NCBI GenBank assembly: GCA_001599595.1
Contig: BCHH01000005.1
Coordinates: forward strand, 1,061,552-1,125,551
Source: Beverwykella pulmonaria
Lineage: Eukaryota > Ascomycota > Dothideomycetes > Pleosporales > Melanommataceae
Length of the DNA stretch: 64,000 nt
Direction of reading: 5' to 3'
Positions within the stretch are counted from its first letter, which is position 1. Every line of letters starts with the position of its first letter. The translations under genes were made by a program, and so were the position numbers. This document shows positions 6,307-47,547 of this stretch, one piece after another. A model generated the notes under the pieces. It made no database searches. It saw only the letters and a program-made list of their open reading frames with translations, and was not told the DNA's origin.

Positions 6307-6475
6307 ATCAGCTCTCTTTGCCTTTTGGCTTAGATCAAGTGTAGTATCTGTTCTTTTCAGTTTAATCTCTGAAACGTCACTACGGTGACATTTTAAGATT
6401 ATTCCTATTTTTGTGACTGGGTCTCCTCTCACTGGGCTTGCCTACAGTTGAGACCACAGTGTCGCCAGTGAGTCA
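6307..6475 (+). ncRNA. U2: U2 spliceosomal snRNA
   Basis: U2 snRNA pairs with the intron branch site in the spliceosome. The 5' region (from about 6317) reads CTTTTGGCTTAGATCAAGTG and continues into GTAGTATCTGTTCTTTTCAG, near-identical to U2 of other eukaryotes. The branch-site-pairing GTAGTA is at 6341-6346. Stem-loop IIa is seen as GTCAC-TAC-GGTGAC just downstream. An Sm site ATTTTTG is at 6407-6413, followed by a longer 3' hairpin whose arms include GGTCTC and GAGACC. The 3' end is estimated from the last hairpin and may be off by some bases. No overlapping protein gene. Confidence 0.96.
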
Positions 6476-7794
6476 TCTGCCCCATGATTGCCTCTATCAT
6501 TACTAAATTAGTCTAGATATTGCACTACCTTTGGCTGACGCGAACCTTTTCATTGAGACATCTGGCTTGCCAGTGCTTGAGGAAGAGTTTTTTCGTCTGT
6601 ATTGTTGAGGCAACGGTTTACAGTTAAGAACATGGTAGCTGTTTATTATCCTCGACCCGAGGAAATTTAGATGTGGTGAGTCAGAGCTTGCAGGCAGCAA
6701 GTCGATCCTGCGCGGCGGGTGGGAAACCTACGAAAACTTTGAACTGAAAACGCATTGCCAAGCTCTACCCTACGTTGGCTTCCGGGCCTTCGTAGCCTCA
6801 GGCACTGTTCGGTAGCCCAGAGATGGCAGGTGGAGCTGATAATGGGTTTCCACTAGAGCTACTGAGCTTGGCTGCATAAAATGACCCGCCCTACCAATTT
6901 GGGTAAGGATTTGTATAACCCAAGTCGACGAGTTCTCCCTACTGTTGCAGACATTACCAGCAGACATATGGCGCACGATAGACTATTCTAAGCCATGTCT
7001 ACCTAACTTGCTGCCATCCTGCTCGCTACTCGTCTGCTCTAGGTACCTGTATTGGAATTTGCTGTTAAATGCATTCCCACGGAATTTGCGAAGCCTGCAG
7101 GCTTTGGGTGAAAGGTCTTCATGGCCCATATAGGTAAGGCTCCCGGGCTGACATTTGTAGGAGATGGATCCAGTTCTGGGCTCTATGAGCGATCAAGAAA
7201 ATCATAAGCTTCATTTTTATCCATATCGCTTCTGATTGATCTAGGAAGGTGGAAAAACCATGTTTTATCATCATTGCTTGGTTCTTTAACATCTGGCCTG
7301 CAGAATCTATGGTTGTTATAAAACAGGAGAAGCCGGTTTGTCCAGATATCCACATGCAGATTCGAATAGCGAAGCTGTTGGATGTGTTCTTGAGCTGGGT
7401 GTAGGCGATATGAAACCATTGTCTAGTGCTTTATTTACCTCGCTTAGAATTCTTAACTTCTGCGTCCATCTCTCGAACTCGATCACTCAATAGACGGAGG
7501 TAAATACTTAATATAATGTGACCACAGTGTAGCCAAGTCATTCTGTAACGACTGAAACGCATCCGGCATGTGATAAATGTTACCACCGATTGCCACAGCC
7601 TCGCCGCCCCCTTGTTTGAACAGTGTGCTCCCGCCAAGGCTGCACTGCCCTCGTACCGCTTTCTCGCCCTCGCCACTCTCCCCTCATCACTGCTTCCGCA
7701 TTCTCGAATATTGCACTCAACAACTCCTTGAAGTGATCCATCTTGAGAGTCACTCCCCGAGCGAGACAGACTGTAACTTTACTTCTGCTTCGTG
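6476..7794. other. Intergenic, no gene recognised
   Basis: 1.3 kb of moderately AT-rich DNA between U2 and the pepsin-like gene. Short frames exist on both strands but none shows a domain, signal peptide or consistent splice structure. Confidence 0.4.
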
Positions 7795-14234: not shown

Positions 14235-15383
14235 TCACAACCTTTCTTCATCTTTATTATTACCACTGCAAGTTCCCCCAGAATATCCCTCCTGCTCAGA
14301 CATTCGGTCCCTCTCATTTTCTTTTATTTTTTGGGGGGGATTTTGACCTGAAGTTATGGTGGACAAAGTCCGACTGTGAGCGGTGTGGTGCATTTGATAG
14401 CTTTCACCATTATGTGAATTCAATGACTTATGTGACGATGGAACGCGGACAAGTACGCGGAGGAATGGAATCGATGCTGCGATAATAGCCATTGCGAGTT
14501 CGACCATGGTCCAGATGAGTATTTGCGCTGCTTGGTTGGCTGTATGTGATCAGCTTCGTATCTTTTTGGGGTGAACGGTGAACACACCAGTGGAATTACT
14601 CCAATGTATCATTTTAGGGACAAAGGACACCCTAATTGCTGCAGCAATACCTGCCAAGATACCAAGGGACATAGCAAAGATGATACCTGCCTTCTCTTTA
14701 CTGTTCATTAGTGATTGGCGGATGATTAGCCAAGGACATGCAGCGAGAAGAAAGTCGGTGCACATTGAGTATACTATGCTACCCATCAGCACGAATTTTC
14801 CCATCTGCTTGCGAGAGCGCTTTCAAAAGATCTAGCTTTGAGAGACTTACTGCTAGAAGACATGGCAATGCCCGTCACCGCCGTCTTACTCAGACACTTC
14901 CCCTCCACTGTCGGATCCCAAAGTCTCTCAACCGGTGAGCATTGCGTGAACAAGAAGATGGTGCACATCCACATGACCAAGTTTGTGCTGACGAGGAGGA
15001 AATAAATGAGCCATTTGTGAAATTTGCAGTCGGTAATGCGCAAAAGCGAAATTCCGAAGGAGGTTTTAGTAGTCGGCACTGCAAGTATGGCGAACAATTG
15101 TGCGAAGAACATGTACTTAAGATACTTGCTGTATCCGTACTCGAAAGACATAGTGACCGCTAGGACGTAAATAAGAACGAAGATCTGGACGTTCTCAGAA
15201 CAACGCAATTGAGTAGAGTTAGAGAGGGTGTACCCAAGATATGAGGAGAAGCACATCATCCAGGCCACCGAAGTGCTTACTATACCTATACTTAGCTAAA
15301 ATGCGAAGGACCATGAAAATAAAGGCCGTCATCGCGAGCACCCATAGCGACACGACGATTTCGGGTCTATATTCTTCCATCAT
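14235..15383 (-). CDS. Fungal rhodopsin-domain (PTH11-like) 7-TM membrane protein
   Basis: Integral membrane protein of the large fungal rhodopsin-domain family, whose best known members (PTH11) act as surface-sensing receptors; ligand unknown. Exons read: 15383-15234, 15184-14879, about 14807-14588 and 14527-14235, roughly 320 aa. Features in order: TM1 (IVVSLWVLAMTAFIFMVLRI), the GGLDDVLLLISW loop, TMs in FVLIYVLAVTMSF and LFAILAVP, the conserved Cys region FTQCSPVERLWDPTVEGKC, then DFLLAACPWLII, an EKAGIIFAMSLGILAG helix and final TM ILIWTMVELAMAIIAAS. Introns 1 and 3 are canonical; for intron 2 the strong GTAAGT site gives a stop, and only a weak GTGACG site keeps frame, so a splice change or a lesion is possible there. 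The ATG at 15383 was preferred because upstream codons lack an ATG. Confidence 0.72.
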
Positions 15384-30416: not shown

Positions 30417-31106
30417 TGAGCCCAGACACTACGTCCAACTCCACTTCGAAAAATGTATGTTACTATCAGACAGCTACCTCTTCATCGAGACCCGTACCCT
30501 ATTCCGGAGAACTCGAACTATAACAGGGGTTCTCTGTATCTTGCCATTACCGCTGCGCTGGTTTCCATCGCGCTATTGATCTTCTTGCTAAAAGTCCACA
30601 CTCGTACAAGACTTCTATGTTTTTTCGACGTCGATGACTGATTGATGATGGCCGCTGTAGTAAGTCGGCCGGAAGTTACGCTATCTATACGTGACGATCT
30701 GATCCTGAGTTCATATCAGCTATGCGCAATCGGAGTGCTAATCACCTTCACTGTACTGACAAGACTTAAGATTGGAAGACGCTATTGGGTAATTCCCTCC
30801 GAAGACGTTCTTAGAATAGCTCGTTGGGTATGGCTCTTCACTTTGCTCCTGGTCCTCGGCATGAGCTTCATCAAGCTTTCTGTCGCATTCTTCCTCCTTC
30901 GGACCATTCACCACACAAAATACCGATGAATTGTATATGGCATGATTGGTATATGTCCCTTCCAATCGACAGAAGCCATTTAGTGTGATTGACACGAAAA
31001 AGTTTTGTTAGTACCGTTGACCTTGACCTGGTTCGGAGTACTCGTCTTTCAATGTGTACCCATCTCAGCAGCTTGGGATCTCGTTGCATCCCGTCGGCAC
31101 TGCATA
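30417..31106 (+). pseudogene. N-terminal half of a split rhodopsin-domain gene
   Basis: Encodes TM1 to TM4 of a fungal rhodopsin-domain protein: TM1 (SLYLAITAALVSIALLIFLL), the FDVDD-stop-LMMAAV loop, LCAIGVLITFTV, WLFTLLLVLGMSFIKLSVAF, and after another intron WFGVLVFQCVPISAAWDLVA with the conserved Cys. Introns near 30663-30718 and 30948-31010 remain recognisable. Two Trp codons have become TGA (in DDW and in KYRW), both single G-to-A changes. The match ends abruptly after the Cys-Ile codons at 31106, where foreign DNA begins. The matching C-terminal half is at 46261-47547 on the same strand. The start region (ATG at 30417 or 30453) is uncertain. Confidence 0.8.
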
Positions 31107-31114
31107 TCGCTACT
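31107..31114 (+). repeat. Left terminal repeat of the inserted element (inferred)
   Basis: TCGCTACT at the left border pairs imperfectly (6 of 8) with the right-end reverse complement CCGCTATT. The dinucleotide TA just outside (31105-31106) recurs outside the right end (46261-46262). Short, so only suggestive. Confidence 0.4.
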
Positions 31115-31485
31115 AATATGTATGTGGTGGTGGAAACGCATCCATTTTCGGACGTCTTTTGCCGCCGCTTTCGCCGCCGCTTTCGCCAGCTTTTCCACCT
31201 CGCTTAGCCCTTGTCGCATCGCTGCTTTAAAGGAGGCTCCCCTCGCCTACGACTAAAAGTGCCAAGCGCAGCATCACTACGCCGCACCCATCCCCGTTTC
31301 CTGAGGGTGAGCATACCCACCACTTGTCCTCTGTCAGCTAATTATGGCACTCCCCTCGAAGCCGCCCACAGCCAGCGCCTACTTGAAGGGTCGACGGCCA
31401 GCCTGCCATGCCGTTGTTTCCAGGCATTTCACCCCACCTTAGCAATACTAAACCACTCTCTGTTTCTGCGCATATTGTTTGTTAC

Positions 31486-34003
31486 ATGTCAACATCCACC
31501 CTCGATACAACGCCTATGGGTCTTCAAAATCAACGATCCAAAGATTATGGCGCGCGTACGCGTGTTCGAACGACAGTCATTGCTGTTAGGGTAGCGAAGG
31601 AAAGTGCATCCGATACCGCTACCGTCCCGAACACCGTCCTAAATAGCACTCCGTATCCTACCCGCACTACAACCCTCTCCTCGACCTCGACCCCGACTAC
31701 CCACTCAGCCCATGAGATGGACTCAGACTTCAGCTCCTATTCGGATGCGTCCGCGGATCTAGAGACGCCATCGGATATAGACGCTGAGATAACCGCGGGA
31801 AAAGAACTCGGCATCAGCTTGTACGGAGAGTTAGGCGCGGCACTAAACCCTGAAGTAGAAGAGATAATGGGGGATATTGCTCGCTTTAGAGAGGAAGGGC
31901 CAACGAGGCCCAGACACACTCCTCGAACTACGGAACTGTGGAAGACAGAGAGTGAATTCTGGGCCAAGTAAGTTTGATACTATGCGCCTCCTCCCTATTT
32001 TCGCCACGTTCTGACAAGCCGGTGCTAGGTTTTGCTATAAGATTCGAAAGCGGACGGGATTAGGTGTAGAGGAATTACTACGTAGATGCGACCCAGCCAT
32101 ATTCAAATCGTACCTCTTCTGGCGGAAGAAAGAGTCCCGGATCAAGAAAGAGAGCACGATAGAGGCATATTGGAAACGAATTAGCATGTACTATCAAGAT
32201 GTCACGGGATATGCAATAGGGAATGAGGTCCTAAAAGATGTTCGAAATGTATGTTGCCACTATATTTCTCTAGTTATGAATCTATACTGATAACTAGAGA
32301 AGTGGCTACCGCGCCTAGGGCTTGACAGATCGAAGAAGGAAAAGCTTGCGATGTACGTCCAAACGCTCTACGCTATCATTCACGCACTCTTGGTCTGCTG
32401 TATTGGCAATCCGACTAAGAGCACAATTATTGTAAATGTGAACTTAGAGCACGTTAAGAACAAGGAGAAGGGTGGGACACCGTAGGTCGAATAAGAAAGA
32501 CGATTTCCCTAGCTCTTACTAATGTTGCTTAGGAAGAAGTTCACTTTCCGACTGGAAGGACTCCCTGCGCTCTGCATCGTCTTGCACGTCCTCAGTATCG
32601 CCCAAGGTCGAAATGCGTTCCGAAACAACATTACAAGCGTTCAACAAATATTTGACCTCGTTATACCAGCAGAGCGTAACGTGCTCCGCATCCAATAGAA
32701 AAAGGAAATGCTGGATAAACCGTTCTTCTGCGACTTCGACTATACAGTCAACAGAGGACGCATACAAGAAGATAGGGCTTTCCCGTATGCGAAATACCGT
32801 GATGGGTTCATGCAGTTAGGACTTGTCTTAGGAATTGAGGAACCCTTGGAGCTTTACGAGATACAACGAGCTTCAGGACAGAACATCAATAGTATGTAGG
32901 CCTCTTATTGCGCGTCCCGACCCTTCGTACCAAACTTATGTGATCACTCAGGCGCAGCCACTTCCGCGGAACGGAACCAGGCCATGGGCCACGACGGGGA
33001 CACATACGAGCGATACTATACGCCAACGCATATTGCACGCGACTTCCAGGCAATCTATTTTGGAACTCCCCCAGAAGAGGAGCTCATCCGATCTGTTGCG
33101 AGCATGGGCCTATCGCGAGACCGCCGCGCTCCAATAGAGCTTAATGATACGCAACAGAAGGAGGTACAGAACGACCCTTTACTTGCAAGCCTCCGCAGAG
33201 AACGAGAAACGTACAAGCAGGAGCTCAAAGTCCAGGGCTTTTATCCACTCTAGAGGGCAAAGGGAACCGATCTACACAACAGATATGAGCGGACGAACAA
33301 GGAAATTGCTAGTACCTATCAGCAATTATACAGATTGTGACTGAAGTAGGTTATTCGTGAATTCCATGACTCAATTGATACTATCAAGGTAGCTAAGCAG
33401 CTTAATGGAAAGACAGCGGTAGAAGTGCTAACGCTGCCGCCCGCTGAGTTTGAGCTTCGAGAGCGAGCGACCATAGCCGCCATGCTTTTCAAGCCAATGA
33501 AAATAGATAAGACTCGCATGAAGTTCGTTCACACCTTGGTTTGTTTATTCCCGTTGCGAGAGACGCGTCGGCTAAAGGCTACAAAACGTGCGGCGGCAGA
33601 GTTTGGGTTCGAAAGCTACGAAGAACCTACCGCGGCGAAACGAAAGACGAGCGCGGATGACCCCACGAAGTGCACAATAAGCCACAATAGCAAGTTTATC
33701 AAACAAGAGCCCGACCAATCCGAGTGCGAAGACTTTACGAAGATCGAGCCTCGACATTTGTACCCGAACGTGCCACCCCACCCAGTATGCGACTTCTGTT
33801 ATGGCATTAAGCAGCGCTCGCACAGGCAGCGGACCGAACATTGGCCACGAAAGGATGTTCTCAATAAACACGTAAACATCCACCTCCGGAATGCCGATTA
33901 CTAGAGAGAGTTCAAGTGTCCTTACCCTGACTGTCGTAGCGTAGTGCATGGTGCGATACATTTCAAAAAGCATTCGCTAGAGGTACACAACGTAGCTCAC
34001 TAA
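31486..34003 (+). pseudogene. DUF3435 tyrosine recombinase (Starship-captain family), degraded
   Basis: Captains are tyrosine recombinases that move Starships. The gene is recognisable with its introns: 31486-31967 (acidic N-terminus), then KSYLFWRKKESRIKKESTIE, GLDRSKKEKLAMYVQTLYAI, FTFRLEGLPALCIVLHVLSI, MLDKPFFCDFDYTV, the AERNQAMGHDGDTYERYY box with the His and the probable catalytic Tyr, and a C-terminal zinc-finger tail (CPYPDC..HFKKHSLEVH). In-frame stops lie at 32696 (TAG where Trp is expected), 33251 (TAG), 33338 (TGA), 33347 (TAG) and 33902 (TAG). The stretch that should hold the first catalytic Arg (a YTGxRPG-type motif) is missing between IHALL and GNPTKST, and IRR has become IQR. 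So it is catalytically dead. The introns still have good sites, so decay is mainly by point change. Confidence 0.82.
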
Positions 34004-34753
34004 TATATATAGACCTCTACTTCGCTGTATAGATGAGAGGCGGTGCTAGCCGAGATGGCATATTCATAGGCCTTGGATAATTGGGACAATTCGGCCTAGT
34101 CAAGGAAGAAAGTACGACTGCGGAGAGGCAACATAAGCATGACGAGTGTGAATTTTCTCTACCTACCTGTGCCAGTCTTAAGGGGTGGATAGCTAATAGT
34201 GAAGCGAAGCGTAGAGTAATAAGATGTGGTAACCTAGACTCGCGTGCTGAGCGTAAAGCTCCCCTAGAAGCAGACACAATAGAGCTAAAAGCGCGATGTA
34301 CTTAAATGGTGTTATTGAGAAAATGGTTGATGTTAATATAACTACTCTACGCATACTGTTCCTTGATGCGGGATATTATAACCATTGTCGATTAGCAATA
34401 GGCTCGCCAAAAGCCTCTGTTGCTTGCAGTCTTCGTCTCCTATCTTGAGCAGCTTATAAGATATCTCTTCTCTGTTTTTCTGTTGTCTGGAACATGCTCG
34501 GCGAGGGTGTTTGCTTTTAGTCGTGATCGTCCACATGTAATCCAAACACCGGATCGTCACTGTCCACTTGCACTTTCTACTACTGCAGGCTAACCTATCA
34601 TTCAGGCTACCTGATCGTGGTTGACTATGATGATGATGATGATGATGATCGTACCCATTATATCACGGCACCACCGAAACTTTACAAAGGTTCAGCCCAC
34701 TCCTCTTATGAGATAAGCGCCGCTGAGAGAAAGGGTACAATGTTAATAAGACC
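34004..34753. other. Spacer between captain relic and NLR, with GAT-repeat
   Basis: No gene seen. A (GAT)n microsatellite of about seven units lies near 34626-34648. The two flanking genes are convergent, so both 3' ends face this spacer. Confidence 0.5.
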
Positions 34754-37700
34754 TCAACTGCCCTTTTTAGACTTGTTGCCATTCCCTTCACTTTTGGCAT
34801 GGAAGAACTTATGCAGCTTCTTAAGGAATCCCTTTTTCATGTCTTTAGCTTTAGTCTCCGGACTTTTCTCCACCTCGCTGTCTCGAATAACCTGCGCCGT
34901 TGATTCGCCATCCGGACCATCCGCCCATTGTAGTGGAGTCCGACCATCTCGAGTTTTTGCGCCGACATCCGCTCCATGGTCGATCAGGACCCGAGCCACT
35001 TTTTCCTTCCTAAGGCCAACAGCTACATGCAAGGCCGTGGCTCCAGGCTGCATCTTCTGGTCGATTCGCATGCCGAGTTTTAGGGCTGCCGTGCCGCCTG
35101 CTTGAATCTTTCCATCCACTTCGGCTCCGCCCTTTATCAGCAGCACTGCCACGGTCTCGTGTCCAGCCCAGGCCGCCAGATGTAGTGGTGTCAACTGCAC
35201 TTGGACATTCGCGTTGAAATTGTTGTCCTGATGCTTGACCTCAACATCAACTTGGCAGCGCATGTCTGGGTCGGCGTCATGTTCGAGGAACTGGTTGATG
35301 ACCGCAACATCGTCCAATATCACTGCCAGATGTAAGCCAGTCAATTCAGCCTCCATCCTTGTTTCCACACTGTCAGCTTTCTGCAGCATTCGAATTACTC
35401 TTTCGTGTCCCAACACGGCTGAAAGATGCGGAGCTATCATCGCTGTATGAACGGTCCGTTCGATTCTCGCCTGGCCGGTATGCGAGACATTGGCGCCTTT
35501 CTCGAGCAGTAGTCGCACCATGCCGTCATGTTTCCACATGGCTGCCAGCATCAGCGGTGTCAAATCTGCTTGTAAGCCGTCTTGGACTCTGATCTGACAT
35601 TTCGAATTGATATCGGCGCCCTTGTCGATCAGTAACCGCGCCGCGTCCATGTTTCCTAGTATGGTGGCTAGGTGGAATACGGATAGCTCGGTTTCAATCT
35701 TCAATTCTACCGCCGCGCTGACTTGGTTCTGGAGTTTTCCCTCAAAGGCCGCGTCAACCGTAGCTTGAATCTTCACACTCAGCTTTTCGTCTACATCGTC
35801 CGCCCTCTCCAGAAGAAGCTTTAAAACGGTTTTGTACCCTAGCGCGGTCGCTAGGTAGAGCGCGAGGTTTCTTCCCAGCCCTTCCTGCTGTTCATCCTGA
35901 TCTTGCATTGCCTTTTTGAGGAGAGGCTCTGTCACTTCCCGGGTACGGAATACGGTTATGACATCCAGAATCTTAAGTTCAAATTGAATTATCATGTCAA
36001 TGCTAGCCAGGGACTTGGCATGAATGTCAACCTCGTTCTCAAACAGGCCGGGAATGCCTTCTTTGCCGGAGAGAGTGGCCAAGTGCAATGCCGAAAGCTC
36101 AGCCTGGAACTTTTTACTGACGCCCACGGTGTAACTTGCACAGAGATCGACGCCCTTGGCAAGTAGCAGCTCCACCAGCGACTCCCGGTTTAGCAGCAAC
36201 GCCAGGTGCAGGGCTGACAGTTGCGTACCCAAGTTTTGAACGCTGAGTTTGAGGCCGGTGTCGTCGTCCCCTCCTTTGCCTAGGAGGGTTTCTACCATCG
36301 CCTTAGAGCCTCGTGCGATGGCAAAGTGTATCGCTTTCAGTTCAGCATTGACGTTGAAGAGGCCTACTTGGAACTTATCGTGTGTTTGAGCTCCGTTATT
36401 CAAGAGGAGATCTGTAATACGAGATGCATTACACAAGGTCGAGAGATGCAATGATGTCCCAGTGATGTACCATTTATCGCCCGTACATTGAACTTCGGCG
36501 CGAGCGTCAGCTTTATACTTGAGGAGCACCCTGACCAGTTTACGGCCCTTCACTAGCGTAGCCAAGTGCAGAGGCGTCAGTCGGATAGACGAATGGCCAA
36601 TATTGATTTGAAGAGCTTGATGCACATCCGCTCCGTGCTTAAGGAGGTAGACCAGCAGGTTTTTTTTCCGCATAATGGCGGCCAGATGAAGAGCTGTGAA
36701 CTTGATTTCTACCCTTCGAAACTGTATCACCGAAATAGCGTTTACATCGACACCCTTTTCCGTGAGAAGTTTGACAAGGGTCATATGTGAAAAAAGGCCA
36801 GCCAAGCTCAGGGTGGACAGCACTGCACGAGACCTGTGAGTGGCAACTTGGAGGTTGGCAATGACGCTCGCACCATGTTTGATTAGCAACTTGGTCGCCT
36901 CTACGTTGCCCATCAGTAGGGCTAGGTGCAAGGGCGACACGTTGCTCTGTGTAATCGATCCATCCAACTCCTCGTTACTTAGGTGAGCCGTCGCTCCATT
37001 GTGCAAAAGTAACTGGATAGTGCTTGTCTGTCCAGTCAACGCGGCTATATGCAATGCAGTGAGGTTTGCCTTCAGCCGTGTGCCTATTGTAAAGCAGCAC
37101 ACCTCATTTACGTCGGCCCCGGCCTCGATCAGTGACTTGACTACATTTCTTCTCTCCCATAATGTGGCGAGAAATAGCATCGACACGTCGAAACGCGTCT
37201 TGTGAATGGTTACACTGCCCTTCATGGCAGGGTCGGCGCCCCTTTCGAGGAGCTGCTCCATCACTTTCCAATCTCCAACCATGGCAGCTAAATGCAGCAC
37301 GGATAACTCAATCCGCACTCTTGGAATGAAATCGACTCGGAAGGGGAGTGAAACATCCGCACCCTTTTCGAGTAGCGAACTCGTGGTCAACCGACCGTGA
37401 GGATTCGTCGGGGAGCTTTTGTATCCCAGAAGTAACATGAGGTGGAGCGGAGTAATGCAACTGTTACCAGTTTTGCTCTTGATCTGCACCTGTTGGTTGG
37501 CATCAGCGCCATTGCTGACCAGCATCTTTAGAAGCTTGCTGCGCTTCAATGCTGCTGCGATCTGGAGAGGTGTCAGGCTAATATCCGCAGAGGGGAATTT
37601 TATGCTACACGGCATGCCAATGTTGAAGCCATTTATGAGCAGAAGATTCGTTACCGCAGTGTTGCCTTTGACAGCTGCGAGATGCATCGCGGACATTTCA

Positions 37701-40700
37701 ATGCGCGCCTTGCCCACACAAATCAACGCCAGATTGTTTGCAGAACCCTGAAAAACGCCATTGCTGAGACCCATTTCTTGCGCAAAAAGAAGCAGAAATC
37801 GATCCAGTATCGCATCCTCATCTCCTACAAGTGCAGCGAGATGCAATGGACTCATCTCGAGGTGCAACACCTTGCCAACCATGACTCGAAATTTCGCATC
37901 CATAAGTGCCCCTGCTTCTATCAGGCTTCGGATCAGGTTGCCAGTGCCACAGTGCCAAATAGCCGCCAAATGGAGTGGCATCGCCTCCAGGATCAGGTCC
38001 TTTGCTTCTATAATGCACTTGCTGTTCACATCAGCACCGGATTCGAGAAGCACCTTGACCTTGGGTTCATTTTTGGACATCAAGGCCAGATGCAGCGCAT
38101 TAAGCTCAAAGTGAGCTTTTTGTTCTGCTTGCTCGTCTGTTCGCTGGGGTGTGTTCGTCTTTCCAAAAACGGATGATGGTAGGAGTTCGTCCCCTAGGAG
38201 AGCTGCAAACATGTTTGCTGTTCGTGCCATGATGTTTTCAGTCGTGAGTGGGAACTGTGAGCTCATGTCGCCTTGCAGCTTCTCGTGAACATCAGCGCCC
38301 GCTTTGAGGAGCAGCCGCACCATGGCTGCGTTTCCTCCCAAAGCTGCAAAATGCAAAGCGGTCCATTCTGCGTGAGCATACTTGTCGTTGTCGACCTGGC
38401 CTTTTGCGTGTACATTGGCGCCTTTGCTGAGGAGTTGCTTTACGACCGCTCTCGAATTGGACAATGCCGCCAGTTGCAAAGCGTTGACGCAAAGGCGGCT
38501 GTTGCCATCTACACCAAGTTGAGCGTTGGCATCAACGGATACTCCGTACGTGAGAAGCAGTTCGACTACATCTACGTGCCCTAGGAACGCAGCTACGTGA
38601 AGTGGCCCCAAGTTGAAATGGAAAAAGTCGATGCGCGCCTGGAGCTGGTTCGTGCAATCCGCTCCCTTTTGCAAGAGTTCACGCATCACATCTCGGTTGC
38701 CGAAAACGGAGGCAAGATGTATAACAGGCAGCTCGATGTCGGTGGTTAGGTTCAAGTTGAGCTGCATATAGCGGATTCCCCTTTGCAATTTGACGCTCTT
38801 GTCGGCAGTTAAGTAACATGGTGTCGTTGCACGCAGTCCGCGGGCGAGCAACAGCTTCACTACTTCGAGATGCCCCCAAATGATGGCGAGATGAAGCGAA
38901 GTGATCCTCGCCTTGACGTTCTTGAACTCTGCGTGGCAAGTTGCGTTGATATTGGCGCCTTTATCAAGAAACAGGCGTACAGCTTCCTTGTTGCCCGACA
39001 CCACGGCACAGTGCAATGCCGTCAGCTTTGCATTGAGCCAATCCTCACCGAGTCCTACTTCGCACACAGCCTCCGTATCTGCTCCCCTGTCTAGAAGCAT
39101 CTTTACCATGGGCTCGTGCCCGGACAGGCCTGCCATATGCAATGCCGTCGGTCTTGCGCTCATCTTGATGCGAAACTTGGTTGCGACTACGGCCCGGCAT
39201 TTTGCGTCCACATGGGCGCCTCTGTCCAGCAGCAGCCCAGCGACTGCTCCGTGTCCGCACTGGACAAGACATTGTAGTGCGGCGAGCTCGTCTTGGACGG
39301 CGAGAATCAGCCGCACCGTGGCTATTTGTTCTTGTTGCTTGGGCAGGAGCCAAGGAGGAACAAACTGATCCACTTTGGTGGAGAAATATAGCGTTGCGAG
39401 CATGCCGCGGTCGTTGGTGTTGAGATCCAGCGCGAAGCCATCTGGTGCATATGCCAAATCATCCTGCCAGTCTTTCCCGGCAGGTTCGCCTATGCCTATC
39501 ATAGCCAGCTTCTTCGGAAGATTGAATGTGTCACGCAACATGCCCGTCACTTTGGTTACTTTCTTCAACTGCTCCGCCCAGGTACTCGACTCGTCTTTGA
39601 ATTCAAGTTGTCGAAGCTTCGCCAGGTCGTGGCGCTTTTTGGAAGCCCAATGTAGCGCCGTCCATCCGTATGAATCTTTGGTATTGACGTCGGCACCACG
39701 GTTGATCAGCAGTTCGGCGACGGCTCGTTGGCCTTGGCCAGCCGCGCAGTGAAGCGCAGCAACGCCATCCTTTCCTCGCTCATGGACGTCCATTTGATCC
39801 AAAAGAACGTCAACTACGTCTTTCTTGCCAGTCCAGGCCGCCACATGCAACGCGTTCCAGCCTTCGTCGTCTTGCAAATTCGCGCGGGCCCCTTGTTGCA
39901 GAAGCGTCTTTACGACGCTACTGTGGCCATTCAAGGCCGCTAGATGCAACGCTGTGTGTCGGTGTGTTTTCTTCTGAAGATTAATATCGGCTCCTTTCTG
40001 GACCAGTAGCAGTACGACGTCGACATGCCCGTTCTCGGCTGCGCGGTGCAAGGCGGTTCCACCGTCTTCATCAGTCGTGGAGACATCTGCACCCTTGTCA
40101 AGGAGTCGCCCAACTATTTTCGTGAGGCCAAACGAGGCGGCAAGCTGCAATCCATTGGCTCCTTTGGTGAAGAACTGGCTGTACCCGGGGTACCGGTAGG
40201 CTGGGAGATGCAATACTTGATGAGAAGACCAGACATTTGATTCCATTCTTAGGAACAGCAGGGCCAGGTCTTCCGCTTCGTCACTCTCGCGTATGTGATT
40301 GCCCCATTCCTGCGCAGCGTATGCAAGGAACGGAAATTTTCGCAGTCGAGCGCGTAATCTCTCATCGCTGGAGCAAGGTCCAGCTGAGAGCGCGGAGAAG
40401 GAAAGATACGAAACACAGGCGCTGGCGATCGTTTCGTTTGCAGAGCATAGCCAATCTGGTCGGTTTGCGGGGTTTTTGAAGTAAATTCTCGCGGTTTGGT
40501 GCATCAACTGCACACTGTCGCTTTTCTTGTTAATCACAACCAAACCAGCGCAGAGCGCGACGGATTCCTCAAGGTTCCCCTCAAAGTAATCTTTGTCAAA
40601 GTCCTTTCCAATTCTCACGTTGAGGGCGTGTTGAAACTCCCGGCAAGAGAGAGATCGCTTGGCTAGAATCGTCCAAACCAGGATCCGGCGTGCTATCTGC

Positions 40701-42995
40701 TGGTCTTTGAGAGTGTGGCCGTCGATTCTCTTTAGAGTGCGTTCGTATACCGTGGCTATCTTATCGAGGCTCTCCTTGAGGGCTCTCAAGGCATCGTTGA
40801 TGTCCCCGACCGTTCGCTCGCTTCGCAACGAGTACAGGAACGGTTCGACGAGGACAAACCTTGGTCATAGTTACTAAAGCTTCATAGTGGACAGATGGGG
40901 ACGTAACGTACATACCATCTACTGCTTCGACTATCGTTTTTTTGATCTTGACTTGTAAATCCTTGTTTTCTCTTACCAACTTTGGCAACTTTTGTATGAG
41001 GGTATCAAGCACAGCTTTTACATCGTGTTCCGGGGCTTTGATTTCCATCGACTCATATTCTTCGAAGAACTCACCAAAGTCGATAGTTCGTCTAGATGTG
41101 GCTAGTAGCTTCATACCTGTGCTCTTCTGATAATCGCTTAGGTTGGACAGGAGGTCCCGTGTAGTGTCCTCGGAGCATTCATCCAGCGCATCTACTACGA
41201 GAAATACCTTGGGAAACTTTCGACTAACGTCAACCAAAACGGAAGATATCTCGTCCAAAAGCGGCTGGCTCTGATTCGTTGTGTGCGTAGTATGAAGCTC
41301 CGTTACCGACCTCGGAATTTCCGTGCACTGATGAGCAAGCTGTCTCAGAATCGCTGCCAGCAATGACTGGAGGGACTGCTCCTGTATTCTCTCATATTCG
41401 AGGTACAAACAAACAACTGCTGCTTTTTCATTTGGCGCCCTTTCGCTCTGAGCGGCGTGTAAACGATCGACTACGAGAGAAGCAAAGATGGTTTTTCCCG
41501 ACCCGGCGATACCATGACACCAAAGCGTTTGGGTCTGATTGTTGGTCCAGTCAAGAAAAGTCTGCGACTCCACAAAGGTTTTTCCGGTATCGCGGTGCCG
41601 TTTCGCTCGAGAATCCGCCCATTTCTTGGTATGCGTGTCCGAATCAAGCCAGTTCAATATTTTATCGCGTTCTTGTGTCTGTCCCCGCTGCGGTCGATCT
41701 TCAGTTTGTCAGTATGTCGGAACACATAAGGTATACTCAAGTTTTCACTTTCCTTTCTTCATGTCCTCTAGCTCTTTACGCATCTTGTCTATCTCTTCCT
41801 TGGCTGTGGAGACGGTTGGCTAAGAATTCAAACAAGACGATCTCATGCTCGCAGTCTACTCACTCGCTCCCGAACACGGTTCAACGACCTCTGCTTTCTG
41901 CACGGTTCCCAGTAACTCTTTTGCATATGCAGCCGCCGTCGCCGCAGCGTATCTTTGCCATATCTTGTGCTTGTGTGTATCGGAGTAATCACAGATACCG
42001 CGGATGACAAGGCAGGGGAAATCATTCATCAGCCCAGCAGCTTCCATCTCGAAACACAGGATGCCATATTTCTTTCGCAACTTCTCTCGCGTCTCACCGT
42101 GTCTCATGACCACATCTGCAGACGCAATGGTTCCGTAATGGATTACGGGATCTGTTTCCGGTCGAGGGTGCCTAGGCACTAGACGGCGTTTGTCACAACG
42201 GGGACATGGAAATCCAAGATGGCCAGGGGAATCGTTTGCGTTATCTTCAGGCCCTCGCGAGACAGAATGTGGTACATTTCTCTGCTCAAAATGCTCGTAG
42301 TCGGCCTCGAATAACTGATCATGTTCGGCACCCGGATACCGATATCTCTGCAGGGATTCCAGGTTTGCATCTTCGGCCTTGTGTTTCTTTTGAATCATGT
42401 CTGTGACATTGCGCGAGATGGAATTCTTCAAGGTTTCATGCTTGGACCGCAGAGCACTCACCGCCGTGGTGAGCAATGACGGCGGAACATTCAAAATGCC
42501 CGCGTGCTGAAATTCTCCGCCAGCTACGACTTTCCCACGATCATACTTGATTACAGCGCCTGTATTTACTCGGTAAGACATGGACTACTTCTGTTCCATG
42601 CGACATGGCATACCTAATTCCCCGTTCGGGATGCTTACCACGACATCGCCTAACCGAATGTCGTCCTCATCCGGACGTGCACTCGGATTTGGTGCACCCC
42701 CTCCAATGCCCACCATCAAACCAAAGCGAATCCTCGGGAAGCTGTGCATCATGTCGGCCGCAACGGTGGCAGCCGACGTTTGCCCTATGCTCCCAGTCGG
42801 GAGACATGCCATGGCAATGTTGTGCCCATGGATCTCGCCTAGAATATACTGGTTTTTATCGCCCTCCGCAACCCGGAGCGCCTCATGAACTTTATCCAGC
42901 ATTCCTTCGGACGCCGTCAATTCGAGAGGAAGGGCACAAATCCAGCCCACGGTGTAGTCGTTTGCGGTCGGTTTCCTGTCTCGCGCATTCGTCAC
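34754..42995 (-). CDS. NLR-type receptor: PNP_UDP - NACHT - about 40 ankyrin repeats
   Basis: Fungal NOD-like receptor, a class linked to non-self recognition and programmed cell death. Exons read: 42995-42614, 42559-41864, a small linker exon, a NACHT exon to 40912 and a 6.1-kb last exon 40859-34754; about 2,680 aa. The N-terminal domain is nucleoside-phosphorylase-like (TVGWICALPLELTA, MVGIGGGAP, CFEMEAAGLMN, GICDYSD). The NACHT part has Walker A GIAGSGKT and Walker B FLVVDALDEC. The rest is ankyrin units, most of about 40 residues instead of 33. A basic tail (KKGFLKKLHKFFHAK) ends it. Two oddities: the codon at the expected start is GTG with a TAG upstream, so the true first exon is unresolved; and no simple splice keeps frame between the PNP exon, the small coiled linker (KEEIDKMRKELEDMKK) and the NACHT exon. 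The last exon is open over 2,035 codons. Confidence 0.88.
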
Positions 42996-43627
42996 CAGCT
43001 GTTCACTTGATGTCCTCTAGGAAACGCGTCATACCTGGGCGACTGGGTCGTCATCGTGGTGGATCAGCGGAGTGCTGTATCGCACACAAGGAAGTCCACT
43101 TTGCATTTAGGATTTCGTAGCAAATGGGAGGATGGGGAGAGTTCAGAGGACCCAGCTGCATGATTCAGCATCAGGCTGTTATCAAGCGCTGGCTATCTAT
43201 GGTAGAAACGCCACGTCCTGTGTGGCGCCGAAAGCGCTGATATGGTACCGAATCGATTTTCACAAAACAGCTGGTCAAAACCTGAATGCATATGCGAGTC
43301 CTTGGGGGCCAATACGCTTAGGGGATGGAGCTGCCGGTGAGCAGCTGAAAAGCCACGATTCCTGTGCTGATTGGCTATATCAAGTCTATCAAGCGCAGCC
43401 CAGTCCCACCCTTGCACGATGTATGCAGGAGGACTACTGGTATCCCCTCAGAGAGCTGCTCTGACAGTGTCACACCTTATTGAGCCAAGACATCACTCGA
43501 TAACTGGTAGTCTATTTGTAGATCATTCGACTAGCATATAGGTTAGATTTTGCGCCTCGCAGCACCCGAGTCTTCACGATTGTCCACCACTTTGCCCCAG
43601 CAAAGTCGCCCTGCGGCATATATCACA

Positions 43628-45007
43628 ATGTCGCAAAACAATCAAGATGAACAGCTTCCAGAGAATATTACCGATGCACGCGACGTGTGCGGGGACTCTA
43701 AAGATGACAAAGTTTTGACTGCGTTCCAAGAAAAGGCACAAATCCAATAGAGCCCGTTTAATCAGTTGTGACGCTAATTTTGCCATAATTCAGACGCAAT
43801 CCAAACCACGCCGTTATCGGCATCTCTTGAAGAAAATGGCAGTTACTGCAGTCCAATCTGCTGGAGAGGAGTATTTGGCATCATGGCTTGCAAGAGATCG
43901 CGACAAATATGGTCACTTCTATACAAGCCGTATCCCGAAACATGCTCTTTATGGATCACTTATTCACGTCCCTATCGCCAACTGGCTGCTCAAGTGGGCT
44001 CGATATCTATTCCGTGGCCGAACAAGCCCCACTTCTAGGTTCCTTGCTATCCTGTTTGGCCTGCTGGTGGTATGTCATGGAAAGGGTGTACCATGGGGTG
44101 TGTGCCAGGACGACTACGATGCTGACTCCATTTCTCGCAGGTCGCTCCCATCCAGAGAATCATCTTTTTGGCGGCAGAGGGCATCATAATGGGCGCTAGA
44201 ACTTCTCTTCAAGTACGAGCCACCGTGCGCGCAGGATTTTCGTCAGCTATGAAAGTCGTGCTGCTTGCGTTTCCCATCGCCGTTTCCTTTGCAACGAATT
44301 TCCTCCCAGAGAGAGCTTGGCCCAAATTCTTCACCTTCGTAAACTTTGCGATAAACACTTACGCCAATGCTCATGTTAAGAAACGAAGACTTGCAGCTCT
44401 TAGGAAAAAGCACTACGGCGACTCAGAGGTCGTGAGAAAGGAAGAGGATGAATCAGACGCAGACTCAATTCCTATGCCCGCTACTTCACGACCGACCTCT
44501 CCACCAATCACTCGTAGTACTTTGGTTGTAGCACAGGGAAATGGTATATTAGATGCTGCCCAATCTGTCATGCCAACTGCTATAAAGTCAATCTATGCAC
44601 CAATCATTCGTAACGATTCAGACATAGGGCAGGCAGACGTTGAGTTGTACCGTGGGTCAAGCTATTCGAGTGATTCACCTACAGAGGGAGAAGAGATCGA
44701 ACCGGGTACAGTGCCAATTAGAACGCCATCTCCTTTTCAGTTATACTACAGGCAAAATTTTTCAGTTCCAGAGAGAGAAGGCGCCGGGCCGAGCACAAGA
44801 CAATCTGAAGCAGCTGCTGCAGCTGCTGAAGCTATTACTACACGACCGCTTGATAGTGCAAATGCTTGGCGGACGCTCACTAGTAGGGATAGCTCTAGCG
44901 ATTCGGACAGAGAAGAGAGGGGGGGGGAATCTGAGATAGACTCGGATACCAGTTCAGGCAGCGCTCACAACATTCGGCATTACCGACGGCGGTATTACCG
45001 ACGATAA
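43628..45007 (+). CDS. Mpv17/PMP22-like membrane protein with long Ser-rich tail
   Basis: Related to the Mpv17/PMP22 family of peroxisomal and mitochondrial membrane proteins, in which it may form a channel or affect membrane function. Clear exons are 43794-44069 and 44141-45007 joined by a 71-nt intron (GTATGT...CGCAG). The family pattern is seen: YLASWLARDRDKYGHFYTSR, KHALYGSLIHVPIANWLLKW, AILFGLLVVAPIQRIIFLAA, ARTSLQVRATVRAGF, FPIAVSFATNFLPERAWPKF and NTYANAHVKKRRLAALRKKH. After that comes an unusual polar tail of about 200 residues, acidic and Ser-rich with an Ala run (AAAAAAEA) and an Arg/Tyr-rich end. The first exon (ATG at 43628, ending in a stop at 43748) cannot be joined in frame by a normal donor; it may use a weak site or be damaged. 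Second candidate cargo gene of the element. Confidence 0.7.
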
Positions 45008-46218
45008 TTTCCTGTCGGTAAATGGTTTTCTGCAGTAGGTTACGTAGGGAAGTGGCAACCGTAAAAGGAATCGTATAGTCCTGAATTTGAAGCCGTATTA
45101 CCACTGTACGATTCCCAATTAGGAAGGAGGCGTAGGTTGCTTATTCAGGCCACATAGAGCAAATGCGGAGCTTTGGCCTCTGTCCTCATCCCTATAGATG
45201 TGCTGGGCATATAGATGAACCTTATTACGAAAGCTCTTATATACGGCAAAGGCCTGAGCAAATTAGAAGTCGAATTAGTAAGAGCGTCGCTTGCAGAAAA
45301 ATATGCCGAGTTCTGCCGAAACGGACTCCTGCTGAGTCGAGAAGCCGCTCCAGCCCTCTTATCCGCTTAATCTGTAACGCCGGGACACAGCCTGCCGTCA
45401 AGCAGACAGTCATGCCGAATAAAGCCCCACCAATTGGTGTCCGAGTGCAGATTGGGCGAGTACATGTCGGTATCGTCTGCATGGCTGAGCGGGTCGTAGC
45501 CTAGCTGAGTTTTGCCTCATACGACCCTCTAGTCAAATTGGGCCTGTAGCTAGGGTACTTCAGGCCAATTGTCTCCCAGAGGCTTGCAGTTCTGTAAAAT
45601 TGTTGAGGGTCCAGCTGATATTGCACGGGCTTGACCCCTTCTGAAGGGACGCTTTCGAGGCGTGCAAGGCGCTTCAGGTCAACAATCTCCAAGACGAGCA
45701 GACATGGGTCGACTTCTTTCTGAAAGGAGAAACCGAAGGAAATAGCTGCAGTTCGTCCATGGGCGAAGTCGAGGCAGGTAGATGCTATGAACACTGCTCA
45801 ATCATGACGAAGGCGAGGAAGCGAGAGCGGCCAAAATCCGTCAAGGCAGAGAGCTGCTCGTGGAGCATCGAAAAGAAGAGAGCTAGTGCCTCAGACAGCA
45901 CAGCGCCCTCTTTGTCGGTCCATCAAAGGGGGGAATATTGGGGGGCATCCGGGCGGTGCAGCGGTTGCATGATTGCCAAGGGGTTGAGAAAATGCCTCAC
46001 AGGGGAGTCTGAGCGACCAATTAGGAGAAATGGGGAGGAGCGAAGGTGTTGAGAGTAAAAAGGACGATGGGATGGGGAGGGTAGGCCGGCGAGGGCAGCA
46101 TGCTTATATGTGATGGGGTCCACGCACGGGCCAGATAAAAGCAGCGAACTGCCAAGCGAGCGTCCATTTTCTGCATGCAGAAGCGTCCATTTCCCGATGC
46201 AGTTCCACTCTCACCAAA

Positions 46219-46232
46219 ATACCTTAAGGTAT
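46219..46232. repeat. 14-bp perfect palindrome near the element's right end
   Basis: ATACCTTAAGGTAT, 28 bp inside the inferred right border. A possible recombinase-binding or hairpin site; function unknown. Confidence 0.6.
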
Positions 46233-46252
46233 ATAGTGGGATTGGTCTTGCC

Positions 46253-46260
46253 AATAGCGG
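46253..46260 (-). repeat. Right terminal repeat of the inserted element (inferred)
   Basis: AATAGCGG on the plus strand, that is CCGCTATT read inward, pairs imperfectly with TCGCTACT at 31107. The host gene continues with TAAGTGAAGCC at 46261. Confidence 0.4.
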
Positions 46261-47547
46261 TAAGTGAAGCCGACGTTAAAGAAACTCTGCTCATCTTTCC
46301 AGCTATCAACGCTGCTACAGACCTCGTTTTCGCAATTCTTCCGATCCCCATATTATGGGCACTTCGGGTCAGCCTTTGGACACGGATGTCCCTCATATGC
46401 GTGCTGAGCCTGGGCTTCTTGTATGTTTGTCGCACAACTATTGCTTTTTCAACGCTCACTCCACCAGCGCTTGCGCCGCCGCCATCATCAGGATACCCAT
46501 GATATACAAATTCCTGGGTTGGAGGAGACCCGTTTGTGTAGGCCTACTTACCACCATGTTGCACGAATCGGCAGCTGACTCTTTTTACAGCCATATCGCT
46601 TGATTGATGCTATGGAGCGTGCGAGTAGCGCCATTTCCCGGATTTCGGTTGCGTGCGAGCGTGTCAAGTGTGCGAGATCCAGCCATGGTGACTCGAGATG
46701 ATCGGGGGCTTCGCAAACGTCGCAAGTTGGCGCACATGTACAACGCGACAGGATGAGCATCTGGCGTATGTCTCATATCTCCCCGCTTTAGGCGAGATGC
46801 AAATGACGGGTTGTTGTATACATATGGACACCCGTGGCTCGCTCTTTCAGATCCAGTGTTCCTTTCATCGTTTCTACTCAAACTTCTCATTCTTTCCAAA
46901 TAGGTCTCTCAGAGACACATGTTCGATAGTTGACCACTCCATCCAGCATCGAAATGACCATCGGAATAACTGCCGCCTGTCTCCCCTCTCTCAAGCCGCT
47001 ACTGACGGTCCTCCTATCTGCACTCTCTCATTTCACTCCCTCACGCGGAACCTCACACACCTCACAATATACAACCCACAAATCTCACTACCCCTCCCAA
47101 CCCGACCGCAGGCACATCTCAACCTCGCGCATCGTTCCCTCCTTCACGCGCCCCAAGCACGCATACCTCCGGCGCTTCCACGATTACGAATCGTGTCTCG
47201 ACTTCGATCTCGAGACCCCGCCCCCGCGCAACCATAGTGGCATGACAAGCTTCAGCTCGCCGTTTGATCATATCATTGAGTACCCTCACGCGTTTGCGAA
47301 TCCGAGGTCTAAGTCAGGAAGCCGAGGACTGGAGGATGATGTGAGAGGATGGAGGTGCGGGTACGCAGTCAGTATCACGAGTGGGGAGACACCATGGGAC
47401 AATGGTGGTGGTGAGATGGAGAGCGATGGGAGGATGATTAGGAGGGTTGCAAGTGATGAGGAAAGTGCGTTTAGGTTGGGACTAGGCGAGGGGGAGGTTA
47501 ATGGAGGGATTGTGAGAACGACGACTACAGAGGTCACTATAACTTGA
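46261..47547 (+). pseudogene. C-terminal half of the split rhodopsin-domain gene
   Basis: Continues the gene broken at 31106: ADVKETLLIFPAINAATDLV, FAILPIPILWALRV and LICVLSLGF, a well-formed 47-nt intron (GTATGT...CCACCAG) ending near 46469, then ACAAAIIRIPMIYKFLG. After this the frame breaks (GGDPFV-like residues in another frame, then TAG) and about 390 bp of unrelated sequence follow. The last exon resumes near 46944 with IEMTIGITAACLPSLKPLLT, the final TM, and a 200-residue Ser/Thr/Pro-rich cytoplasmic tail ending at 47547. From the conserved Cys in the left half to NAATD here the spacing equals that of intact relatives once the insert is removed. Confidence 0.75.

Follow-up and report, generated by a model that had tools for sequence, protein, structure and literature searches.

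A probable derelict Starship-like insertion of minimum size, carrying an NLR, splits a rhodopsin-domain gene of Beverwykella pulmonaria

Starships are large transposons in which the first gene, located at the 5' edge, codes for a DUF3435 tyrosine recombinase (the captain) and the accessory genes include NLRs; the kinds of accessory cargo named are NLR, PLP, FRE and DUF3723 (PMC12506042). Their size is given as 15 to about 700 kbp (PMC12134995) or as typically ~20-700 kb, and direct repeats of 2-12 bp are listed for 19 of 20 elements and inverted repeats for 18 of 20 (PMC12153272). Elements with a mutated captain, which are immobile while their cargo remains in the genome, are known as derelict Starships (PMC11623301). 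Thus, both the class and the derelict state have been described before. In the following, we present a stretch of 15,113 bp from Beverwykella pulmonaria that interrupts a rhodopsin-domain gene (PF20684) and is probably a derelict, minimum-size Starship-like insertion of this known kind. It occupies positions 31110-46222 of the window, i.e. of the whole stretch of 64,000 nucleotides that was analysed (C5:1061552-1125551 of a 45.6-Mb assembly with 31 contigs). Our literature search listed related papers, none of them with an entry that describes this locus; it gave no report linking a Starship captain with Mpv17, nor one that combines a Starship captain, an NLR and an insertion site. The features on which the argument is based are:

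31110..46222, no strand assigned: insert of 15,113 bp, with joints chosen to give 16 residues after a Cys as in five relatives
30453..31109, plus strand: left part of the rhodopsin-domain gene, three exons and two introns, ending Cys-Ile-Ser (tblastn of P0001 residues 1-180)
46223..46530, plus strand: right part of the rhodopsin-domain gene, with exon 46223-46259, intron 46260-46302, a second exon starting at 46303, another short intron and then a frame break
46942..47544, plus strand: last exon of the rhodopsin-domain gene, beginning SSIEMTIGITAACLPSLKPLL (tblastn of P0001 264-311, 65%, at 46942-47097), with the frame open to 47544
31717..34000, plus strand: dead DUF3435 captain with a C-terminal C2H2-like region and a possible upstream start at 31486 (PF11917, alignment with 12 relatives, tblastn)
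34754..43016, minus strand: NLR with the domains PNP_UDP_1, NPHP3_N/NACHT, GPIID_WHD and ankyrin repeats (Pfam), colinear with P0060 and P0061
43836..45004, plus strand: Mpv17-like gene with exons 43836-44069 and 44141-45004, both open

The insert shares with the Starship superfamily a DUF3435 recombinase that comes first at the edge and faces inward, NLR cargo, and a size that lies at the lower limit of the range of 15-700 kbp. Unlike the superfamily, it has a dead captain, weak terminal repeats, no second whole copy that we could find, and only two recognised cargo genes (PLP, FRE and DUF3723 were not searched one by one). Two comparable elements, Sanctuary and Horizon, have hosts belonging to Pleosporales. 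They resemble the insert in layout and cargo, as their captain is near the 5' edge and their cargo comprises NLR or NACHT and ankyrin genes (PMC12506042, PMC9594970). For Sanctuary, the captain is placed ~350 bp from the element edge and has a C-terminal DNA-binding part (PMC12506042). Both elements are much larger, at 47.5 to 196 kbp (Sanctuary) and 143 kb (Horizon), and contain many more genes than the insert (PMC12506042, PMC9594970). Derelict Starships likewise have a mutationally disabled captain and have kept their cargo; those described show, however, heavy repeat-induced point mutation (RIP) and a formaldehyde-resistance cluster, whereas the insert shows a faint RIP signal and carries an NLR and an Mpv17-like gene (PMC11623301). 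Cryptons, like the insert, rely on a tyrosine recombinase enzyme; theirs is very distantly related, and inverted repeats as well as variable cargo are considered traits of Starships (PMC12134995).

The first line of evidence is the host gene, which is split by ~15.1 kb of other DNA. Of the 16 relatives compared, the one most similar to either part is the protein P0001 of Melanomma pulvis-pyrius, with 58% identity on the left and 69% on the right. Within the genome itself, three paralogues (on C2, C3 and C11) rank next after this locus for the left part as for the right part, with identities of 37-31% (left) and 56-44% (right); the right part matches PF20684 with 32.4 bits. An earlier note on this DNA had proposed that the stretch lies between the halves of a single rhodopsin-domain gene, and had named halves with different best orthologues as one finding that would speak against it. 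The proposal stands, since P0001 is best for both. In the five proteins P0001-P0005, each of which is predicted as a single protein spanning the joint (four of them carry the label partial), exactly 16 residues separate the conserved Cys from the motif NAATD or its equivalent. At the protein level, these five relatives are uninterrupted. Excision of 31110-46222 likewise yields 16 residues if the right exon is spliced: it ends with VYSGIGLANS, is followed by a GTAAGT...CAG intron (46260-46302) and continues with NAATDLVFAILPIPILW. The dinucleotide CT is found at both joints (31110-31111 and 46223-46224); owing to this shared CT, the cut can be placed at 31109/46223 or equivalently up to 31111/46225.

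The joints differ from those of the earlier note, which had set them at 31106/31107 and 46260/46261, had given the insert a length of 15,154 bp and had let the codons for Cys-Ile and Ser-Glu rejoin in frame. On the left, tblastn of P0001 runs to 31109 (C-I-S), and the joint is 31109/31110; on the right, the joint is 46222/46223, ~38 bp upstream of the former position. The corrected joints give 15,113 bp. The Cys-Ile/Ser-Glu joint had to be abandoned because the supposed Ser-Glu codons lie in the intron 46260-46302; moreover, a fusion of 31106 to 46261 meets a stop, and the claimed frame needs 46263. The number of 16 residues between Cys and NAATD, also proposed there, is retained for the spliced exon, whereas the way in which it had been obtained, by reading the intron as coding, produced it by coincidence. 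A comparison of the two readings illustrates this: over the 16 residues after the Cys, the spliced one has 8, 9, 8, 5 and 7 positions identical to the five relatives, the one with the intron as coding sequence only 3, 4, 4, 2 and 3.

The split host gene is also decayed. Its left part contains two in-frame exon stops (an intron accounts for two further stops of this match), and its right part one frame break and one stop, read by eye, both 5' of the last exon. Directly before this last exon, at 46622-46942, the 3' part of the gene contains ~320 bp of extra DNA. A second transposon was considered as its source; none could be shown, and the extra DNA matches nothing else in the genome. The rhodopsin-domain family is large in this genome, with at least 162 PF20684 stretches, some of which are exons of one gene (150 of 294 candidates were scored). 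A further open reading frame within the window (14786-15295, minus strand) resembles by eye part of a rhodopsin-domain protein.

The second line of evidence is the captain, which is the first gene of the insert and faces inward, as had been noted earlier. Depending on the start chosen (31486 or 31717), it begins ~0.4-0.6 kb from the left edge at 31110. The match to PF11917 reaches 184.8 bits and covers profile positions 60-394 of 418; the closest relative (Polyplosphaeria) is 59% identical. Like Melanomma, the source of the best match to the rhodopsin-domain gene, Polyplosphaeria belongs to Pleosporales, and the matches by themselves thus point to a host that is most likely a dothideomycete close to this order. 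A structure model of P0018, an intact relative of the captain, resembles Cre, XerH, XerD and lambda integrase. Four introns were located at ~31968-32028, 32249-32302, 32482-32532 and 32892-32951, with borders set by eye. The alignment with the 12 relatives revealed five exon stops and a deletion of ~54 codons near 32394. Counting all eight stops of the DUF3435 match as damage proved incorrect: three fall in an intron. The captain is disabled by these stops and the deletion; therefore the element would be immobile. Elsewhere in the genome (L036:3519-6050, C6, minus strand), an open frame of 843 codons contains a DUF3435-like stretch and, judged by eye, several C2H2-type fingers; perhaps it is a less broken relative of this captain.

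The cargo supports the comparison with Starships, and both genes reported in the earlier note, the NLR and the Mpv17-like gene, were recovered by their Pfam domains and by PF04117 matches, respectively. The domain order of the NLR (N-terminal phosphorylase-like, NACHT, repeats) is the one that defines fungal NLRs of the type PNP-NACHT-ANK. The gene was assembled from four open pieces (43016-42588, 42584-41859, 41708-40764 and 40864-34757) with introns between them and GT...AG borders at the joints, read by eye. As these pieces were selected for being open, the actual test is the end-to-end coverage of relatives, for which 14 of 120 listed proteins were used (2930 were found). The ankyrin piece, which consists of 2036 residues, aligns over residues 5-2036 with P0060 (53%). 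P0061 (Trichoglossum) is matched by the four pieces in their order, with the alignment of the ankyrin piece reaching no further than residue 1367. A frameshift had been suspected at the NACHT-WHD joint; it was discarded, as a GT...AG intron restores the frame of the relatives at this point. Neither a stop nor a frame break turned up in the 2653 codons aligned with relatives, although the start exon could still hide damage.

How many disabling changes would be expected in a gene of this length? At the rate observed for the captain, 17-21 would have accumulated in the 2653 codons, and ~38 at the rate of the rhodopsin-domain gene; 0 were found. This estimate presupposes that the genes are of equal age and decay neutrally; the input for the rhodopsin-domain gene (4 changes in 280 codons) was entered by hand. 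Because of this deficit, we tentatively raise the possibility that the insert is a Starship of minimal size in which the captain lost its function but the NLR was maintained by selection, so that an NLR brought in by a transposon became a resident receptor of the host. For the Mpv17-like gene, an analogous sum is weak (2.4-5.2 disabling changes expected, 0 found). This gene is the weakest of eight PF04117 matches in the genome; its second exon alone scores 23.4 bits, which is below the cut-off of 27.

The ends and repeats bear on the question of whether the insert is one unit. The relevant features are:

31110..31150, plus strand: left terminus, with imperfect inverted similarity to the right terminus
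45316..46009, no strand assigned: right-end region, of which 45316-45592 and 45962-46009 recur at C1:600479-600807
45018..45139, no strand assigned: dispersed short repeat fragment nested in the insert, compared with nine other copies

DNA of the left end, from 31167 onwards, recurs once in the genome, at C3:4036818-4037236. In this relic, 31167-31292 is fused to 32091-32394 (82% and 76%); permissive scoring extends the alignment leftward, but into the gene, and the edge is not fixed by it. In addition, a part of the captain (33014-33217) is matched near 2104 kb on C3, with 73%. DNA of the right end recurs at C1, with 71% over 45331-45592 and a short piece, 45962-46009, with an E-value of 0.04. 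Both end regions are therefore repeated DNA. The opposite end is absent in the 20 kb around the C3 relic and in the 10 kb around the C1 relic. The nested fragment at 45018-45139 probably stems from a non-autonomous DNA transposon; eight of its nine other copies start with CAGCGC. Neither an Rfam match nor a tRNA was found at the ends of the insert, the one Rfam match in the window being far off. A gene for the U2 spliceosomal RNA is located at 6308-6502 (plus strand, 122.1 bits).

The composite RIP index was scanned in windows over 28001-50500 only. It is near zero (-0.24 to +0.16) across 31001-35000, with the highest values over 31001-34500, and clearly negative over most of the cargo (-0.83 in the ankyrin part). 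In the comparison of the right end with its relic, transitions dominate (45:12). A mild, patchy effect of RIP on the insert is possible; RIP as the sole cause of the captain's death is unsupported by the index and the transition counts.

Several observations weigh against a single Starship-like element. The inverted similarity of the termini has a score of 31; 8 out of 1000 shuffles reached this value, as did 11 out of 987 random pairs, and the alignment of the termini includes a few gene bases on either side; this likeness is suggestive only. The direct repeat at the ends of the insert is CT only, i.e. 2 bp, and may be due to chance. The earlier note had suggested a search for other copies with the same ends; queries with the whole insert including its flanks and with each end separately retrieved none from this genome that has both ends. 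The copy counts are lower bounds. For the whole-insert query, the self match was not among the matches listed; for the left-end and right-end queries it was. The left relic and the right relic occur at separate places, and therefore little besides the position of the joints ties the left end to the right end. Finally, the RIP index comes close to the captain values at 40501-41500 (-0.12) and 44501-45500 (-0.17), and transitions are not dominant over transversions in the captain when compared with the relics (41:29 and 38:18).

With these points taken into account, we still judge it likely that a small captain-led Starship-like transposon inserted in the rhodopsin-domain gene and later became derelict. 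The strongest competing explanation, which we regard as unlikely, assumes a composite origin: a short captain element (~31.1-34.5 kb) inserted, and the NLR/Mpv17-like block and the right part were added later by other events, so that the 15 kb never were one mobile unit. The peak of the RIP-like index, which spans just the captain part, the dispersed repeat nested at 45018-45139 and the relics at different loci would all fit this history, but the right joint is located exactly where the rhodopsin-domain gene resumes, right-end DNA recurs too, and the two termini show their suggestive inverted similarity. It is considerably less probable still that a chromosomal rearrangement split the gene, with a dead DUF3435 relic lying at the breakpoint by chance. 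DUF3435 stretches do occur several times in the genome (11 matches) and the rhodopsin-domain gene is decayed anyway; against this, zero coding residues were lost at the joint, both halves are in order on one strand, and the captain is at the very edge, facing inward. That nothing was inserted and that the two parts, which do share a strand, belong to separate genes or to a single gene with a very long intron can practically be dismissed, given that P0001-P0005 are predicted as single proteins across the joint (four of them labelled partial) and that an intron of 15 kb harbouring a captain as well as an NLR would be most unusual for fungi of this kind.

Returning to the insertion of a captain-led transposon, the course of events may have been as follows. 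Long ago, a DUF3435-led transposon would have entered the third exon of the rhodopsin-domain gene by cut-and-paste recombination into a short CT-containing site, bringing with it the NLR and probably the Mpv17-like gene too. Later, nonsense changes and a deletion would have disabled the captain and left the element immobile. The frame of the NLR has remained open, and its product may continue to serve in non-self recognition.

There is good evidence that a captain-led insertion carrying an NLR lies within a rhodopsin-domain gene, and to this extent the small Starship-like element postulated in the earlier note is supported; a complete Starship is not shown, in view of the dead captain, the missing second whole copy and the weak terminal repeats. 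The insert probably functions, or at one time functioned, in the manner of a Starship and is probably to be classed as a derelict one; its membership is unproven as long as neither a DNA-level empty site nor a second whole copy is at hand. To a class of elements that typically measure ~20-700 kb, it contributes an insertion that is very small and whose joint can be defined. Its distinctive properties are the minimal size and a single large NLR that is whole, beside a dead captain and inside a decayed gene. The locus thus allows one to compare the loss of mobility with the retention of an NLR, and it bears on the question of whether Starships seed the immune-receptor repertoires of fungi.

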